Shown: in pieces, positions 22,480 through 27,474 of the stretch | How the letters are laid out: each line of letters begins with the position of its first letter | How positions within the stretch are numbered: position 1 is the first letter of the stretch | Origin: Massilia sp. METH4 | GTDB lineage: Bacteria; Pseudomonadota; Gammaproteobacteria; Burkholderiales; Burkholderiaceae_D | NCBI RefSeq assembly: GCF_037094685.1 | Contig: NZ_CP146614.1 | Location: 3,658,001 to 3,722,000, forward strand | Length of the DNA: 64,000 nucleotides | Direction of reading: 5' to 3' | Made by a program: the position numbers and the translations under genes | The notes under the pieces: model-generated | Database searches by the model: none | Seen by the model: the letters and a program-made list of their open reading frames with translations, nothing else | What the model was told of the DNA's origin: nothing

Positions 22480-23667
22480 TCAGGCGTAGCAGCGCAGCCG
22501 GGCGGCGAAATCGCGCAGCACCGCGATGCCGGAGCGTTCGGCCTGCTCGCACCAGTCCCGCAGGTGGGCCAGCAATTCTTCCGGTGCCGCGTGCTGGCGC
22601 TGCCACAATTCGGCCAGCTCGGCGCGCAGCTGCTGCATCTTCCACAGGGCGCTGCGATGGTGCAGGAACAGGGCCAGCGAAGCGGCCTGCTCGCCGGTCA
22701 CGAGGCCGGGATCGCGGCGCAGCAGCCGGTAGACTTGCGCCAGGAAACGCTTGTCGAACACCACGTCGTGCGCCTGTTTCGCATCTTGCCGGAAGGCCCG
22801 CCGCAGCATGCGCGCATAACGGGCCATCACCTCGTGCCGGTTGGCGATGATCGCGTGCAGCGTGTGCAGGTCGGCCACCGGCTTGGCCGGAGCGCGCCCG
22901 GGGCGTGGCGCCACGCGGGTGACCCGCGCCAGGCGGCAGGCCTGCAGCAGCCGGATGTAGAGCCAGCCCACATCGATCTCGAACCAGCGCGACGACAGGC
23001 GGGCCGAGGTGGGGAAGGTGTGATGGTTGTTGTGCAATTCCTCGCCGCCGATCAGGAAGCCCAGCGGGGCGATGTTCGTGGCCGCGTGCGGCCCGTCGTA
23101 GTTGCGGTAGCCCCACCAGTGGCCGAGGCCATTGATGACGCCGGCCGCCGTCACCGGAATCCACAGCATTTGCACGGCCCAGACGGTCAGGCCAATCACG
23201 CCGAACAGTGCCACGTCGATCACGAGCATCAGTCCCACGCCCTGCCAGGTCCAGCGCGAATAGACGTGCCGCTCCACCCAGTCGTCCGGCGTCCCCGCGC
23301 CGTATTGCGCCAGGGTGTCGGACTTCGCGGCCTCGGCCTTGTACAGCTCAGTGCCCTGCGTCAGCACGCGGCGAATGCCGAATACGGCCGGGCTGTGCGG
23401 GTCGCCATCGGCTTCGCAGCGGGCATGGTGCTTGCGGTGCACGGCCACCCATTCGCGCGTGCCCATGCCGGTGGTGAGCCACAGCCAGCAGCGGAAGAAG
23501 TGACTGGCCAACGGATGCAATGTCAGCGCCCGGTGCGCCTGGCAGCGGTGCAGGTAGATGGTGACGGCGGCGATGGTGATGTGCGTCAGCACCAGGGTCC
23601 AGGCGACGATGGCCCAGGCACCCCAGTCGAGCAGGCCGTGAGACAAGAAGGCGAGGAAGGCATCCAT
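22480..23667 (-). CDS. membrane acyl-CoA (delta-9 type) fatty acid desaturase
   Basis: 395-aa di-iron desaturase. The three histidine boxes are H-R-C-Q-A-H (40-45), H-R-K-H-H (77-81) and H-N-N-H-H (about 211-215), spread between four hydrophobic segments as in stearoyl-CoA/acyl-lipid desaturases. It would introduce a cis double bond into saturated acyl chains and so adjust membrane fluidity. A charged C-terminal region of about 150 residues (after D-V-G-W-L-Y-I-R-L) is longer than in minimal enzymes. AAAGGGA precedes the ATG at 23667. No electron-donor gene is adjacent. Confidence 0.9.
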   Translation of the reverse strand: MDAFLAFLSHGLLDWGAWAIVAWTLVLTHITIAAVTIYLHRCQAHRALTLHPLASHFFRCWLWLTTGMGTREWVAVHRKHHARCEADGDPHSPAVFGIRRVLTQGTELYKAEAAKSDTLAQYGAGTPDDWVERHVYSRWTWQGVGLMLVIDVALFGVIGLTVWAVQMLWIPVTAAGVINGLGHWWGYRNYDGPHAATNIAPLGFLIGGEELHNNHHTFPTSARLSSRWFEIDVGWLYIRLLQACRLARVTRVAPRPGRAPAKPVADLHTLHAIIANRHEVMARYARMLRRAFRQDAKQAHDVVFDKRFLAQVYRLLRRDPGLVTGEQAASLALFLHHRSALWKMQQLRAELAELWQRQHAAPEELLAHLRDWCEQAERSGIAVLRDFAARLRCYA

Positions 23668-23815
23668 GCTGTCCCTTTCCGGATCGGCAGGGGACCAGCA
23701 TAGCCGGTTTCGGCGGGCGAGTCGATGTGCACACACCAACCCGGCTCCGGCGAGGATGCGCCGGGCTGCGCAAGGCGGCCCGGCAGGGCGGCGCGTGCCG
23801 CCCTCGGGCGCTCGA

Positions 23816-24385
23816 TCAGCCGCGCGCGGCCAGCTGACGCCTGCGCAGCGCCGCCACGCCGATCAGGCCGACGCCCAGCATCAGGTAGGTGGACGGTTCC
23901 GGCACGGCCGTGACCTGCACGCTGCCGCTGTTGATGCTGGCGGCGATGTCACCGCTGCCACTGTCGAGCAGGATCGTGTCCCTGATCGTCAACGCCGAGT
24001 ACCCGGCGCCGATGGTCTGGAACGAAATCGAGCCCAGCAGACCGCTGCCCGAAACGCCAGGCAGGCTGGCGCCGTAGATCGAGTTGAAGATGAGCGTGAC
24101 CGTGCCGGCCGTGTTGTCGATCAGGCCGGAATAACTGCGCGTATCGTAGCCGAGGAAAATATCGCCTATCGTGCTCTCGGTGGCCTGCAATACGGTCGGG
24201 TCGAACGACAGTGCGAACTCGTACGAGTACAGGTCGGTCACGTCGGCGATCCGCACGTCCAGCTGGACGGCCTGGCCGACGGTCGCGGAACCCGGCGTGA
24301 CGACCGCATTGACGGATGCGGCATGTGCCTGGATGCCTGCCACACTCAGCAGCGCAGCGCCCAGGTATTTCTTCCATACACTCAT
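23816..24385 (-). CDS. cohesin-domain protein with PEP-CTERM sorting signal
   Basis: 189 aa. The signal peptide ends at I-Q-A-H-A. Residues about 24-160 form a cohesin-type domain: V-G-Q-A-V-Q-L-D-V-R-I, D-L-Y-S-Y-E-F-A-L-S-F-D-P-T-V-L, I-D-N-T-A-G-T-V and G-S-G-L-L-G-S-I-S-F are the conserved strands. The C-terminus V-P-E-P-S-T-Y-L-M, a hydrophobic helix and R-R-R is an exosortase sorting tail, so the cohesin should be displayed outside the cell. Cohesins bind dockerins, and the gene 83 bp upstream encodes a metalloprotease ending in a dockerin-like domain. GGAG lies before the ATG (AAAGGAGAAAAAG). Confidence 0.88.
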   Translation of the reverse strand: MSVWKKYLGAALLSVAGIQAHAASVNAVVTPGSATVGQAVQLDVRIADVTDLYSYEFALSFDPTVLQATESTIGDIFLGYDTRSYSGLIDNTAGTVTLIFNSIYGASLPGVSGSGLLGSISFQTIGAGYSALTIRDTILLDSGSGDIAASINSGSVQVTAVPEPSTYLMLGVGLIGVAALRRRQLAARG

Positions 24386-24421
24386 CTTTTTCTCCTTTGC
24401 CTGGTGGCGGTGAACGGTGAT

Positions 24422-24442
24422 CCCGGCCGCAGGGCGGCCGGG
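24422..24442 (-). promoter_or_regulatory. intercistronic hairpin without T-run
   Basis: Perfect 8-bp stem CCCGGCCG / CGGCCGGG with a 5-nt loop, between the protease stop and the cohesin gene start. There is no T-run, so it is more likely an mRNA-processing or stability element, or a partial attenuator setting the ratio of the two products, than a terminator. Confidence 0.5.
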
Positions 24443-24468
24443 CGGTGCTCAACAAGAACGGCCGGACA

Positions 24469-27400
24469 TCAATTGCACGACGTTCCCTGCGGCACACGGA
24501 CGGCCACGTAGTTCAGGTCGCGCACGTTGATGATGCCGTCCCGAACCGTGTCGGCCCGCGCGTCGAAGCCGTTCTGGCTGCTACGCTTGCCGAATGCCGC
24601 AGTAATGATCCCCATGTCCGCACAGTCTACGCTGCCGTCTGCGTTGATGTCGCCCGTCAGATTGATAGTGAAGTTCGCGTTCGACACGTCGAAGAACACG
24701 TTGCCAAGCGCTTCCACCTTGACGCGGCCCTTCGTCGTCGCCAGCGACGGCAGCGTTACCGGGGCGCTGCCGTCGTTCGCCGTGCTGGCCGCGAGCACGT
24801 GCGGCCAGGTCTTGCCGCCATCCGTGGAGAGGGAGATTTTCACGTTCTCCACGCCGACCGGGGCGGCGTTCGTGTTGGCGACGCTCCAGGTCACCGTTTG
24901 CAGGGAACCTGCTTCCAGCGTGACTGCCGCGTTGGGCGACGTTACCAGGAACGGCCCGGCATCCCGTGCCAGCACGAGCCGCGTGTCGGCACTGCTGACG
25001 CCGCCGCGGCCGTCGCGCGCGGTGAGCCGGAAGTTCAGCGACGCCGGGTTGGCGTTCGTGCCGGGCAGGCCCACGTAGGCGGCCGTCGGCAGGAACTCGG
25101 CGTAGCACTCGATGTTGGCGGCCGTCGGCGTGGCGGCCGGCGTCGGGCAGGCGCCGGTCTCGGCATTCGTGTTGTTGGCCAGGATCTGGTCCAGGTCCGG
25201 GAACACGCGCGTCGGATTGGTCGTCACGTGGTTCTCGCCGGGCGAGTTGTACTTGATCGTGTCTTCGCTCGTGACCACGGCGCGCTTGCCGAACTGGCTG
25301 AACAGCGGGCCGTTCTTCTTCACGTTGTCGAACAGCGCCGTGCCGTCGGCGCCGCCGCGGTCGTTCTGCTCCCACAGGTAAGTCACCGTGTCGCCTTCGC
25401 CGTCGGTGGCGCTGCCAGTCAGAGCGAACGGGGTGCGTACCGGGATCGTGTAGCCGGCCGGGGCGGTTACCAGGGGCGCGCTGTTGCCGGTGCCCGAGAT
25501 GTTGCCACCGCGTGTGGTGAGGCCGCCGGCGACGATTTCGCCGACATAACCGGTCACGCCGGACGAGAAGTTCACCAGCTGCAGCTGGCCGACATTGGTG
25601 CGGGCGAGCGTGCCGCCGAAAGTGATGTTGAAGCCGGCGTCCGACAGCGCGCTGATGTTCACGGTGCCGCCCCTCGGCCAGCCGGCGATGTTCTGGATCG
25701 CCTGCTTGATGGCCGCCGCCGTGTAGTTGGTGCCCCGTACGATCGGCGCGGACAGGTTGCCGTTCCAGCTGATCCGGAATTGCCGGCCGTTGCTGGTGAA
25801 GTTGCGCAGCACCGCCGCCTGCAATTCATTGAGCTCGGATTCGCCGCTGGTGACGTAGGAGGTGATCTCGTCGAAGCTGCGCTGCGACCAGTACGGGTCG
25901 CTGTGCGGCTGCACATTGTCTTCCCGGCAGATGCCGGCATAGGCCATGATCGACGTTCCCGAGCCCGGCTCGACGGAGGTTTCCGGGTTGCGGTTGCCGC
26001 CCGAGCAGTTCCAGTTCACGCCATTGAACGTGTGGTTGCCCGCGAACTGGTGGCCGATCTCGTGCGCTACGTAGTCGACGGCGAAGTAGTCGCCGATCGG
26101 GGTCGGTACGCCCGTGCAGCCTTGCGCCTTGCCGCTGCTGCCCACGACCCCCAGGCTGGCGATGCCGCCGCCGTTCAGGCCGAAGGCAATGTGGCCGATG
26201 TCGAAGTTGCTGGCGCCGACCAGCAGGCCGGTGACCACGCGGTTGCGCGACAGGGTCGGCGAGTCGCAGCCGGAGGCCTGCTCCACGGTGTAGCAGGCCG
26301 TGGCGCCGCAGGGGCCGTTGGCGCCGGTCATCTGCGCGTCGGTGTCGAGGTTCAGCGCGTCGTTGCCGTCGACCAGCACGAGGCGGATCGACGTTTCATC
26401 CTCGTAGATCTGCGTGACGCGGTTGACCAGCGTGACCTTGGCGGCCGTTACGTTGGCCGAGCCGCCGAAGTAGCTGGCATAGGACGGGTCGGTGACCAGC
26501 GCCAGCCGGTAGGTGCGCAACTGGTTGCCCGTCACGGCGCCGGCGGCCGCGCTGGCGTCCACCACGTGGTAGGCGGCCGTGGTGGTGGCGCGGCCGTCGC
26601 TTGCCGTCACTTCGAAGGCCCCCTTGCCGCCGGCCGGCAGCGTGAGCGCCAGCACGCCGTTGCTGTCCGCCGTGGCGGCCACCGTTTGCACGCCGCCATC
26701 CTCGCCCTCGGCGCGCACCGTGACGTTGACGGTGGCGCCCGGCGTGAAGTTCAGGCCGCGCACTTCGACGTTCTCGCCTTCCTTGTAGAAACCGCGCGAC
26801 AGCGTCAGCTGGGCGCCGCCCAGCGCCGCCTCGACGAGCGGGCCGTGCTGGTTGACGAGATCCCGGCTGTGATAGCTGGCGTACAGGCTGTCATCGAGGT
26901 GGTAGTAAGGATCGACGTACCAGCCGCCGTTCGGCGAACGCACGGAGGCGTGCAGGCCCAGCTTCGTGATGTCCATGCGCAGCGTGGCCGTCGGATCGTC
27001 GATGCCCTTGCCGCGGTAAGTCTTGATGTCGGGGTGCCTGGCCGCCAGGCCCGGCTCCATGATGGGCGCCTCGACCAGCGCGAAACGCTGGTAGCCGCCA
27101 TCCGGGTGGGGCAGGGAAATCGTCAGCGTGTCGGGAATGTCGTCGATGCCGCGCTCCTGCGGCGCGCCGGCCGTCAGTGCCTGCATGCCGGGCTTGTCCA
27201 GGGTGGCGGCGTGGAAGCGCTTGAGCTTGAGTGCAACCTTCCTGTCGCTGCGGCCGACGGCCAGCGAGTCGGCCGGGGTCGCCGCGCTTTGCCAGTGCGG
27301 CGCGGCGCGCTGAATGGACACTGCCGGGTTGGCGGCCTGCGCCGCAAGCGCGATCGGCGCGGCGGCGGTGAAGGCGAGGGCGATACTGAGGAACAGGGAC

Positions 27401-27474
27401 GATCGCGCACCCGGTACGATGCGCTGTTGCTGGTTCCCGCCGTGGTGCGGCGGGGTCGACGGCTTGATTCTCAT
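24469..27474 (-). CDS. secreted reprolysin-like zinc metalloprotease with C-terminal dockerin
   Basis: 1001 aa. A signal peptide (to about A-L-A-A-Q-A) is followed by a propeptide and an Ig-like domain (about 215-300), then a metzincin catalytic domain with H-E-I-G-H-Q-F-A-G-N-H (His471, Glu472, His475, His481) and a Met-turn S-I-M-A-Y-A-G near 508. Two further beta-sandwich regions follow. The end (about 939-995) is dockerin-like: G-D-I-N-A-D-G-S-V-D-C-A-D and, after a linker, A-D-T-V-R-D-G-I-I-N-V-R-D, two calcium-binding loops with D/N at positions 1, 5 and 12. AAAGGA precedes the ATG at 27474. It appears to form an operon with the cohesin/PEP-CTERM gene downstream, suggesting non-covalent surface attachment of the protease. 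Confidence 0.9.
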   Translation of the reverse strand: MRIKPSTPPHHGGNQQQRIVPGARSSLFLSIALAFTAAAPIALAAQAANPAVSIQRAAPHWQSAATPADSLAVGRSDRKVALKLKRFHAATLDKPGMQALTAGAPQERGIDDIPDTLTISLPHPDGGYQRFALVEAPIMEPGLAARHPDIKTYRGKGIDDPTATLRMDITKLGLHASVRSPNGGWYVDPYYHLDDSLYASYHSRDLVNQHGPLVEAALGGAQLTLSRGFYKEGENVEVRGLNFTPGATVNVTVRAEGEDGGVQTVAATADSNGVLALTLPAGGKGAFEVTASDGRATTTAAYHVVDASAAAGAVTGNQLRTYRLALVTDPSYASYFGGSANVTAAKVTLVNRVTQIYEDETSIRLVLVDGNDALNLDTDAQMTGANGPCGATACYTVEQASGCDSPTLSRNRVVTGLLVGASNFDIGHIAFGLNGGGIASLGVVGSSGKAQGCTGVPTPIGDYFAVDYVAHEIGHQFAGNHTFNGVNWNCSGGNRNPETSVEPGSGTSIMAYAGICREDNVQPHSDPYWSQRSFDEITSYVTSGESELNELQAAVLRNFTSNGRQFRISWNGNLSAPIVRGTNYTAAAIKQAIQNIAGWPRGGTVNISALSDAGFNITFGGTLARTNVGQLQLVNFSSGVTGYVGEIVAGGLTTRGGNISGTGNSAPLVTAPAGYTIPVRTPFALTGSATDGEGDTVTYLWEQNDRGGADGTALFDNVKKNGPLFSQFGKRAVVTSEDTIKYNSPGENHVTTNPTRVFPDLDQILANNTNAETGACPTPAATPTAANIECYAEFLPTAAYVGLPGTNANPASLNFRLTARDGRGGVSSADTRLVLARDAGPFLVTSPNAAVTLEAGSLQTVTWSVANTNAAPVGVENVKISLSTDGGKTWPHVLAASTANDGSAPVTLPSLATTKGRVKVEALGNVFFDVSNANFTINLTGDINADGSVDCADMGIITAAFGKRSSQNGFDARADTVRDGIINVRDLNYVAVRVPQGTSCN

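Follow-up and report, generated by a model that had tools for sequence, protein, structure and literature searches.

In Clostridium thermocellum, proteins of the OlpA type carry a single cohesin on a surface anchor and bind a dockerin-tagged enzyme directly; the anchor is an S-layer-type (SLH) module and the setting is a Gram-positive, scaffoldin-based cellulosome. The 64,000-nt stretch analysed here (the window), from the genome of the soil-type bacterium Massilia sp. METH4, contains two neighbouring genes on the minus strand, one encoding a secreted metalloprotease that ends in a dockerin and the other a small protein with one cohesin and a PEP-CTERM sorting tail, which probably constitute a dedicated one-enzyme/one-anchor display pair. 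Both systems show a single cohesin joined to a surface-sorting part, a likeness claimed only for the way in which they would work, and the solved complexes of OlpA-type single-cohesin anchors, 3ul4 and 4dh2, are among the structure matches. The window pair differs in its PEP-CTERM tail, its Gram-negative host, the location of the anchor gene beside the enzyme gene, and in that no scaffoldin was found. By analogy, the pair may be regarded as a version of the OlpA single-cohesin anchor that uses an exosortase signal and has no scaffoldin.

Peptidases with dockerins are described in other settings. According to the accessible text of PMC12484212, cellulosome producers have an S8 protease with a double dockerin and a cysteine peptidase on ScaE, and holding at the surface by dockerin and cohesin is proposed there. 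These S8 and cysteine peptidases belong to Firmicutes with cellulosomes, whereas the window shows an M12B metzincin with its own neighbouring anchor. In the archaea, non-cellulosomal cohesin and dockerin proteins are found, and surface tethering has been suggested for those of the anaerobic methanotrophic archaea (ANME) (PMC9012536 and PMC5244752, accessible parts). The archaeal proteins (Archaeoglobus fulgidus 2xdh; ANME) are alike in having dockerin and cohesin without cellulose degradation, but the pairing of enzyme and anchor genes and an exosortase-tailed cohesin are undescribed in the accessible text, and some ANME proteins have several cohesins. The cellulosome-like complex of Ca. Stygibacter (Cloacimonadota) shows C-terminal dockerins on S8 and C25 peptidases (PMC8542988, accessible part), which in the same text are served by a single scaffoldin of 3,755 aa that carries tandem cohesins together with a C-terminal domain (CTD) for cell attachment, in contrast to the single paired anchors reported here. 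The window anchor has the C-terminal signal that marks substrates of the PEP-CTERM/exosortase system (Haft 2006, PMC1569441), and two exosortases are encoded in its genome; a term search of the main text of that paper found neither 'cohesin' nor 'dockerin', and the novelty lies in employing PEP-CTERM proteins as a platform for docking. No paper dealing with cohesin, dockerin and PEP-CTERM together was found in the searchable literature, a scope that excludes subscription papers, and cohesin, dockerin and exosortase occur together there only in an ANME review, whose accessible part discusses them separately. Since databases already label some products 'Dockerin domain-containing' and 'cohesin domain-containing', the domains count as known; the one-to-one enzyme-anchor system appears to be undescribed in the searchable literature.

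A sequence-only reading of this stretch had described a protease ending in two dockerin calcium loops, followed in the same direction by a gene encoding a cohesin and an exosortase sorting tail, and had proposed, on the ground of adjacency alone, that the first product docks on the second. Profile searches with PF00404 and PF00963 matched both families and confirm the description (Table 1; positions follow the numbering of the window, and L and G labels denote loci and genomes of the comparison set). Dockerin_1 (PF00404) scores 24.1 bits (gathering score 22.9) over aa 941-990 of the protease, with both loops present; Cohesin (PF00963) scores 52.6 bits (cut-off 24.1) and PEP-CTERM (PF07589) 32.7 bits (cut-off 20.7) in the anchor protein, and both genes are on the minus strand. 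The docking interpretation is supported by the comparisons given below. The solved sequences closest to the window domains are both cellulosomal, 2y3n_B for the dockerin (E 7e-6) and 3l8q_A for the cohesin (E 2e-7). The cohesin shows the jelly-roll fold of PF00963, the best Foldseek match of its model is the A. fulgidus cohesin 2xdh, and the model has a helix at aa 164-188, in the sorting tail. The protease shows a Reprolysin_2 match (E 6e-31, Pfam), the zinc motif HExxHxxGxxH as HEIGHQFAGNH and the Met-turn SIMAYAG, as expected of an M12B/metzincin protease; the His and Glu residues of the zinc motif and SIMAYAG are invariant across 32 aligned homologues. The anchor protein shows the PEP motif, transmembrane helix and basic end of a PEP-CTERM substrate, and an N-terminal signal assigned on the same basis as that of the protease (Table 1). 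Its Pfam content is one cohesin and the sorting tail, without any further domain, and no SLH match was found in it (Pfam, E up to 1). For the window protease, the dockerin is missing from the precomputed domain list of the protein database, and PF00404 is present on 118 of 120 listed proteins. Of the two Cys of the window dockerin, one lies in loop 1 and the other at the C-terminus. Because exactly two Cys are found in the C-terminal segment of 53 of 53 named relatives, a disulfide clasp is suggested for these two residues; PMC12484212 mentions a clasp of a different type in a dockerin of C. thermocellum.

Table 1. Protease and anchor genes of the Massilia sp. METH4 window and their features.
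Feature	Position	Strand	Basis or content
Secreted metzincin (M12B/reprolysin-like) metalloprotease, 1001 aa	ATG 27474 to stop 24469	minus	Pfam Reprolysin_2/3/4/5 + Dockerin_1
Protease N-terminal signal peptide		minus	sequence reading only
Type I dockerin, two calcium loop-helix repeats	24472..24654	minus	PF00404, PDB match
Intergenic gap, 83 nt	24386..24468	minus	between protease stop and cohesin ATG
Cohesin/PEP-CTERM anchor protein, 189 aa	23816..24385	minus	
Cohesin domain, one copy, aa 27-158	23912..24307	minus	Pfam profile + structure model
PEP-CTERM sorting tail, aa 160-183	23837..23908	minus	PF07589; VPEP motif, hydrophobic helix, basic end

The M12B protease is present in 32 of 74 genomes of the genus: 28 extend through the dockerin and four stop at query residue 939-941, which is the dockerin junction (...NFTIN or NFIIN, then stop). 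All 28 dockerin-bearing genus proteases show a cohesin/PEP-CTERM gene directly downstream, although some of these genes escape the Pfam profile alone, and a PEP-CTERM cohesin or cohesin-like gene is directly downstream at 31 of 31 genus dockerin loci examined (28 M12B and three phosphoesterase). No cohesin neighbour was found in the examined flanks of the four dockerin-less genus loci (L124, L125, L128 and L149), the upstream flank of L067/L124 spanning no more than some 300 nt. At the level of whole genomes, a cohesin-like domain is absent from three of the four, and the fourth has one, in a 775-aa secretin-type frame. In a tree of the protease body obtained by a quick method from 79 named loci and the window (80 rows), the four dockerin-less proteases form one clade (Shimodaira-Hasegawa-like approximate likelihood ratio test, SH-aLRT, 100) within the dockerin-bearing Oxalobacteraceae (96). 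Because they are a single clade inside this family, the simplest reading is that dockerin and cohesin were lost jointly, in one event. Among the 80 rows, a cohesin gene lies within the examined flank of 51 of 54 dockerin-bearing proteases and of none of the 26 dockerin-less ones. In 35 of these 51 loci the cohesin is downstream on the same strand, and in the other 16, which belong to Paucibacter, Roseateles, Rubrivivax and kin, it is upstream on the opposite strand, 0.8-1.2 kb off; all 16 show one small gene (108-208 aa) between cohesin and protease, on the cohesin strand. The gene arrangement changed while the neighbourhood stayed. The co-occurrence of both genes in related genomes, which the sequence-only reading had named as a check, therefore stands for the whole genus and most of the wider relatives, with one joint loss, and fails in three Rubrivivax metagenome-assembled genomes (MAGs) that have no local cohesin.

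The pairing is also found beside other enzymes. Neighbours were tested in all six-frame open stretches of at least 70 aa with profiles built from these families (cohA, cohAll, c1-c3). In the genus, 53 dockerin rows are over the cut-off and 39 of them cover the whole profile (start 1-2, end 50 or later, by table reading). A cohesin or cohesin-like PEP-CTERM gene is near 38 of these 39, two of the partners (L084 and L086) being weak as cohesins; the 39th is a 12,833-aa frame without a cohesin neighbour in the 11 kb examined round the match. The partial rows number 14. The GDSL lipase G048 C68 is one of them and has a cohesin partner; the other 13, in frames of 341-481 aa, were rejected as dockerins, since the match is confined to positions 19 to 49-52 of the profile. 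L085, the only one of the 13 that was opened, encodes a phosphodiesterase carrying one EF-hand, and PF00404 probably marks false dockerins in these frames. The genus partner enzymes include a calcineurin-like phosphoesterase, GDSL lipases, a C39-like peptidase and a propeller protein. The divergent partners (L071-L074, L084 and L086), which belong to the cohAll training set, are below the Pfam cohesin cut-off where scanned, L086 being without a Pfam cohesin match; as a set they show an hhalign probability of 98.3% to classical cohesins and a weak PDB match (E 0.0012). In two phosphoesterase-dockerin clusters, a gene of about 300 aa located two genes upstream of the cohesin-like PEP gene (L071:4744-5649, L072:4948-5853) shows a cohesin match and an N-terminus resembling a secretin/TonB short domain.

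In an order-wide sample of 300 genomes, dockerins are present in 19. Outside the own genome, 27 places of this sample were opened: 24 are without a cohesin neighbour, many of them giant frames, and three have one: G129 (M12B), G266 C102 (C25 peptidase) and G088 (GDSL-type, N-terminal motif). Around the giant repeat frames with dockerin matches (e.g. G021 C128, G102 and G128), the examined stretches contain no cohesin gene. Across a phylum-wide sample of 398 genomes, cohesin is present in four and dockerin in 18. The sample includes f53, one family of another order of the same class, from which seven dockerin genes in five genomes were opened; behind each of them lies a gene of about 190 aa whose product has a hydrophobic tail at the C-terminus. 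Six of these seven partners match the cohAll cohesin profile, for which the f53 set was outside the training, and their alignment reaches an hhalign probability of 97.0% and a PDB cohesin at E 8e-11; singly, all are below the Pfam cohesin cut-off, and L205 and L206 are without any Pfam cohesin signal. The f53 dockerin enzymes are LTD/EEP nucleases, endonuclease I, a glucuronyl esterase with CBM9, an M9 collagenase and one unassigned protein. Eight further places of the phylum sample (L210-L217) show no sorting-tailed cohesin neighbour. In f87 genomes (L212, L215, L216 and L217), tandem genes end in dockerin-like repeats with longer spacing (about 70 aa), and in L212 (G444) a large neighbouring protein matches the Pfam cohesin model weakly, so that a scaffold-like system may exist there.

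The dockerin type follows the cohesin next to it. Among 72 pairs, 52 dockerins that have a Cys in loop 1 and another at their end pair with class I cohesins, as do two more (GDSL), typed as 'other' only because the pattern excluded Arg before Cys; class II cohesins pair with 11 dockerins ending in C-x4-C and with seven other dockerins. M12B orthologues make up 51 of the 72 pairs, and many of these sequences went into the training of the class profiles, so that the 21 non-M12B rows are the informative ones. In G088, which was outside the training, a class II cohesin gene immediately precedes the gene of a C-x4-C dockerin protein. As judged from these sequence patterns, dockerin type tracks the class of the neighbouring cohesin. 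The C-x4-C ending is common to Burkholderiales and f53 genomes.

Docking was modelled by single-chain folding of five joined chains, 45 dockerins and 45 cohesins, the joined chains coming from five relatives whose cohesin gene is in frame and which were translated through the stop (TAA as Q). The Rugamonas aquatica pair, one such chain, shows a predicted template modelling score (pTM) of 0.77 over 270 residues, of which the cohesin takes about 140 aa. In the predicted local distance difference test (pLDDT), the dockerin blocks score 95-97, the cohesin blocks 84-98 and most of the linker and signal stretch less than 65. If the cohesin alone were placed, a pTM of about 0.5 would be expected by our estimate from the pTM formula; because the value reached is 0.77, the position of the dockerin relative to the cohesin is probably predicted with confidence in this model. 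For the complex proposed by the sequence-only reading, joint placement of the domains is therefore predicted in a relative, although on a single chain translated past a stop codon and with no error map between the domains.

The whole genome shows two dockerin matches over the cut-off and three cohesin-like domains at three separate places, and each of the two dockerin genes has a cohesin or cohesin-like PEP-CTERM gene either as its neighbour or at a distance of two genes. The greater distance applies to the second dockerin gene (547 aa), whose partner is of the cohesin-like PEP-CTERM kind, and G041, G049 and G070 show that arrangement as well. A single run at the locus of this second gene (G000:C1:5112429-5116502; L074: 6418-10503) encodes the cohesin-like PEP-CTERM protein, which has a C-terminal extension, a 483-aa esterase-like protein, the dockerin protein of 547 aa and a small membrane protein. 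The last of the three cohesin-like domains forms the C-terminal end of a secretin-like protein, in which the domains were named via the relative L078. Secretins with a C-terminal cohesin are found in L202:1-1878 (G000:C1:3124875), L078 (Pfam Secretin + Cohesin), L080, L218 and many genus frames of about 770 aa, and pseudopilin-like genes adjoin those of L080 and L218. A cellulosome was rejected, since no multi-cohesin scaffoldin is among the three cohesin-like domains; a dockerin-tagged cellulase set was not found either, the 547-aa dockerin protein being without a Pfam cellulase domain (E up to 0.01). Of the likeness to cellulosomes drawn in the sequence-only reading, the cohesin-dockerin chemistry fits and the architecture does not. 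The genome has 78 PEP-CTERM tails over the cut-off and two exosortases (PF09721, 254.9 and 219.4 bits). In the open reading frames, the neighbour of one exosortase gene is a glycosyltransferase gene and that of the other a gene of the chain-length/tyrosine-kinase type; this location beside polysaccharide-type genes agrees with exopolysaccharide-linked sorting.

The domain identities and folds, the gene pairing, one joint loss, the recurrence with unrelated enzymes, the exosortases of the genome and the joint placement in the model of a relative are computed observations, and beyond them we infer binding, calcium dependence, exosortase processing, final location and benefit. The protease would be exported via its signal peptide and fold with a C-terminal calcium-binding dockerin; its small neighbour would also be exported and its PEP-CTERM tail processed by one of the two exosortases, so that a single cohesin would end up either on the outer surface or within the exopolysaccharide matrix. 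With its dockerin plugged into this cohesin, the protease would be held there non-covalently, probably calcium-dependently, in a 1:1 ratio, and the digestion products would stay near the producer. As the pairing recurs beside several other secreted enzymes, in related as well as more distant bacteria, it may be a general means of keeping enzymes at the cell surface or in its slime. We lean towards a display principle shared by Burkholderiales and at least one other order of the class, in which secreted hydrolases with a C-terminal dockerin (proteases of M12B, C25, C39-like and M9 types, nucleases, GDSL lipases, phosphoesterases and glucuronyl esterase) are each held on a private neighbouring single cohesin with an exosortase-type tail, and in which matching classes could let several orthogonal pairs work in one cell. 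If so, the cohesin-dockerin bond moves beyond the cellulosome into the everyday enzyme display of Gram-negative bacteria, some PEP-CTERM proteins, whose purpose is mostly unknown, gain a job as docking sockets, and, provided that the dockerin and cohesin classes are orthogonal, new matched pairs become available for protein engineering.

Several results weigh against the display pair. Three Rubrivivax MAGs (L129, L135 and L136) keep the dockerin and show no cohesin in the flanks (four profiles, E up to 1). The tree requires three changes for these exceptions, two of them forced by starred branches, and local loss of the cohesin without loss of the dockerin is at least as frequent as joint loss; because of these three MAGs, our confidence in the display pair was lowered slightly, and it stays a probable reading. 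One of them has an unlinked cohesin-like gene with a sorting-type tail and none was found in the other two, the completeness of the MAGs not being stated. In addition, 22 of the 26 dockerin-less rows are distant (21 actinomycetes and one Acidobacteriota MAG). The partial Mantel correlation between dockerin and cohesin distances is 0.18, a value reached by 17 of 2000 permutations but also by five of 40 other 60-column stretches of the protease. The window dockerin is only 1.2 bits over the PF00404 cut-off, and position 3 of its calcium loop 2 is Val, as in eight of 54 dockerins (the window's among them), where Asn is the commonest residue. Finally, the docking model is that of a relative's pair joined through the stop codon, scored by pLDDT and pTM only and limited to cognate pairs.

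The same results bear on other explanations. The genes could be neighbours through co-regulation as surface genes, with the dockerin binding another cohesin, such as that of the secretin, and the small cohesin binding something else. The cohesin-like domain in the secretin-like protein of this genome, the cohesins in genus frames of about 770 aa and the three dockerin-bearing relatives without a local cohesin would suit this explanation, which we nevertheless hold to be unlikely: the pair survives a change of gene order and strand, was lost together once and is repeated with unrelated enzymes, the dockerin type follows the class of the neighbouring cohesin, and 24 of the 25 genus cohesin matches in frames of less than 300 aa adjoin a dockerin gene, the 25th (G052 C163) being a shifted frame in a secretin cluster. 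Docking could also be real and the cohesin protein a periplasmic chaperone, export escort or inhibitor, its PEP-CTERM tail serving only for placement in the envelope. Pairing with many different, potentially self-harmful hydrolases would suit such an escort or immunity role; however, apart from its one cohesin and the sorting tail the partner has no Pfam domain, and the joint-loss clade keeps the protease body without dockerin and cohesin. We consider this role still less probable than a different binding partner. The slightest chance is given to loose similarity, with an ordinary EF-hand-like calcium repeat taken for a dockerin and a generic beta-sandwich PEP-CTERM protein for a cohesin. The narrow PF00404 score and the 13 genus matches to the second part of the profile only, such as the phosphodiesterase L085, point in that direction, and set beside the profile and structure matches of both domains we consider it highly improbable. 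A display pair thus remains the preferred explanation of the two genes.

Some features of the surroundings complete the description. In the gap between the two genes, a Shine-Dalgarno-like AAGGAG, read directly from the nucleotides, is ahead of the cohesin ATG, and a 9-bp GC stem is also present; neither a sigma-70-like promoter nor a T-tailed terminator was called in these 83 nt on the minus strand. The fold z of the gap (-1.07) is unremarkable, and a perfect stem of at least 8 bp is present in the gap of 10 of 30 relatives, the shuffles having preserved base composition alone. The small gene found between cohesin and protease in the divergent loci persists where the cohesin is missing (L129:5012-5485, L135:5127-5621 and L136:5195-5647). 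Adjoining the window pair, a fatty-acid desaturase gene (22480-23739) shows in its C-terminal part an additional partial match to the Pfam ISL3 transposase model (E 3e-7).

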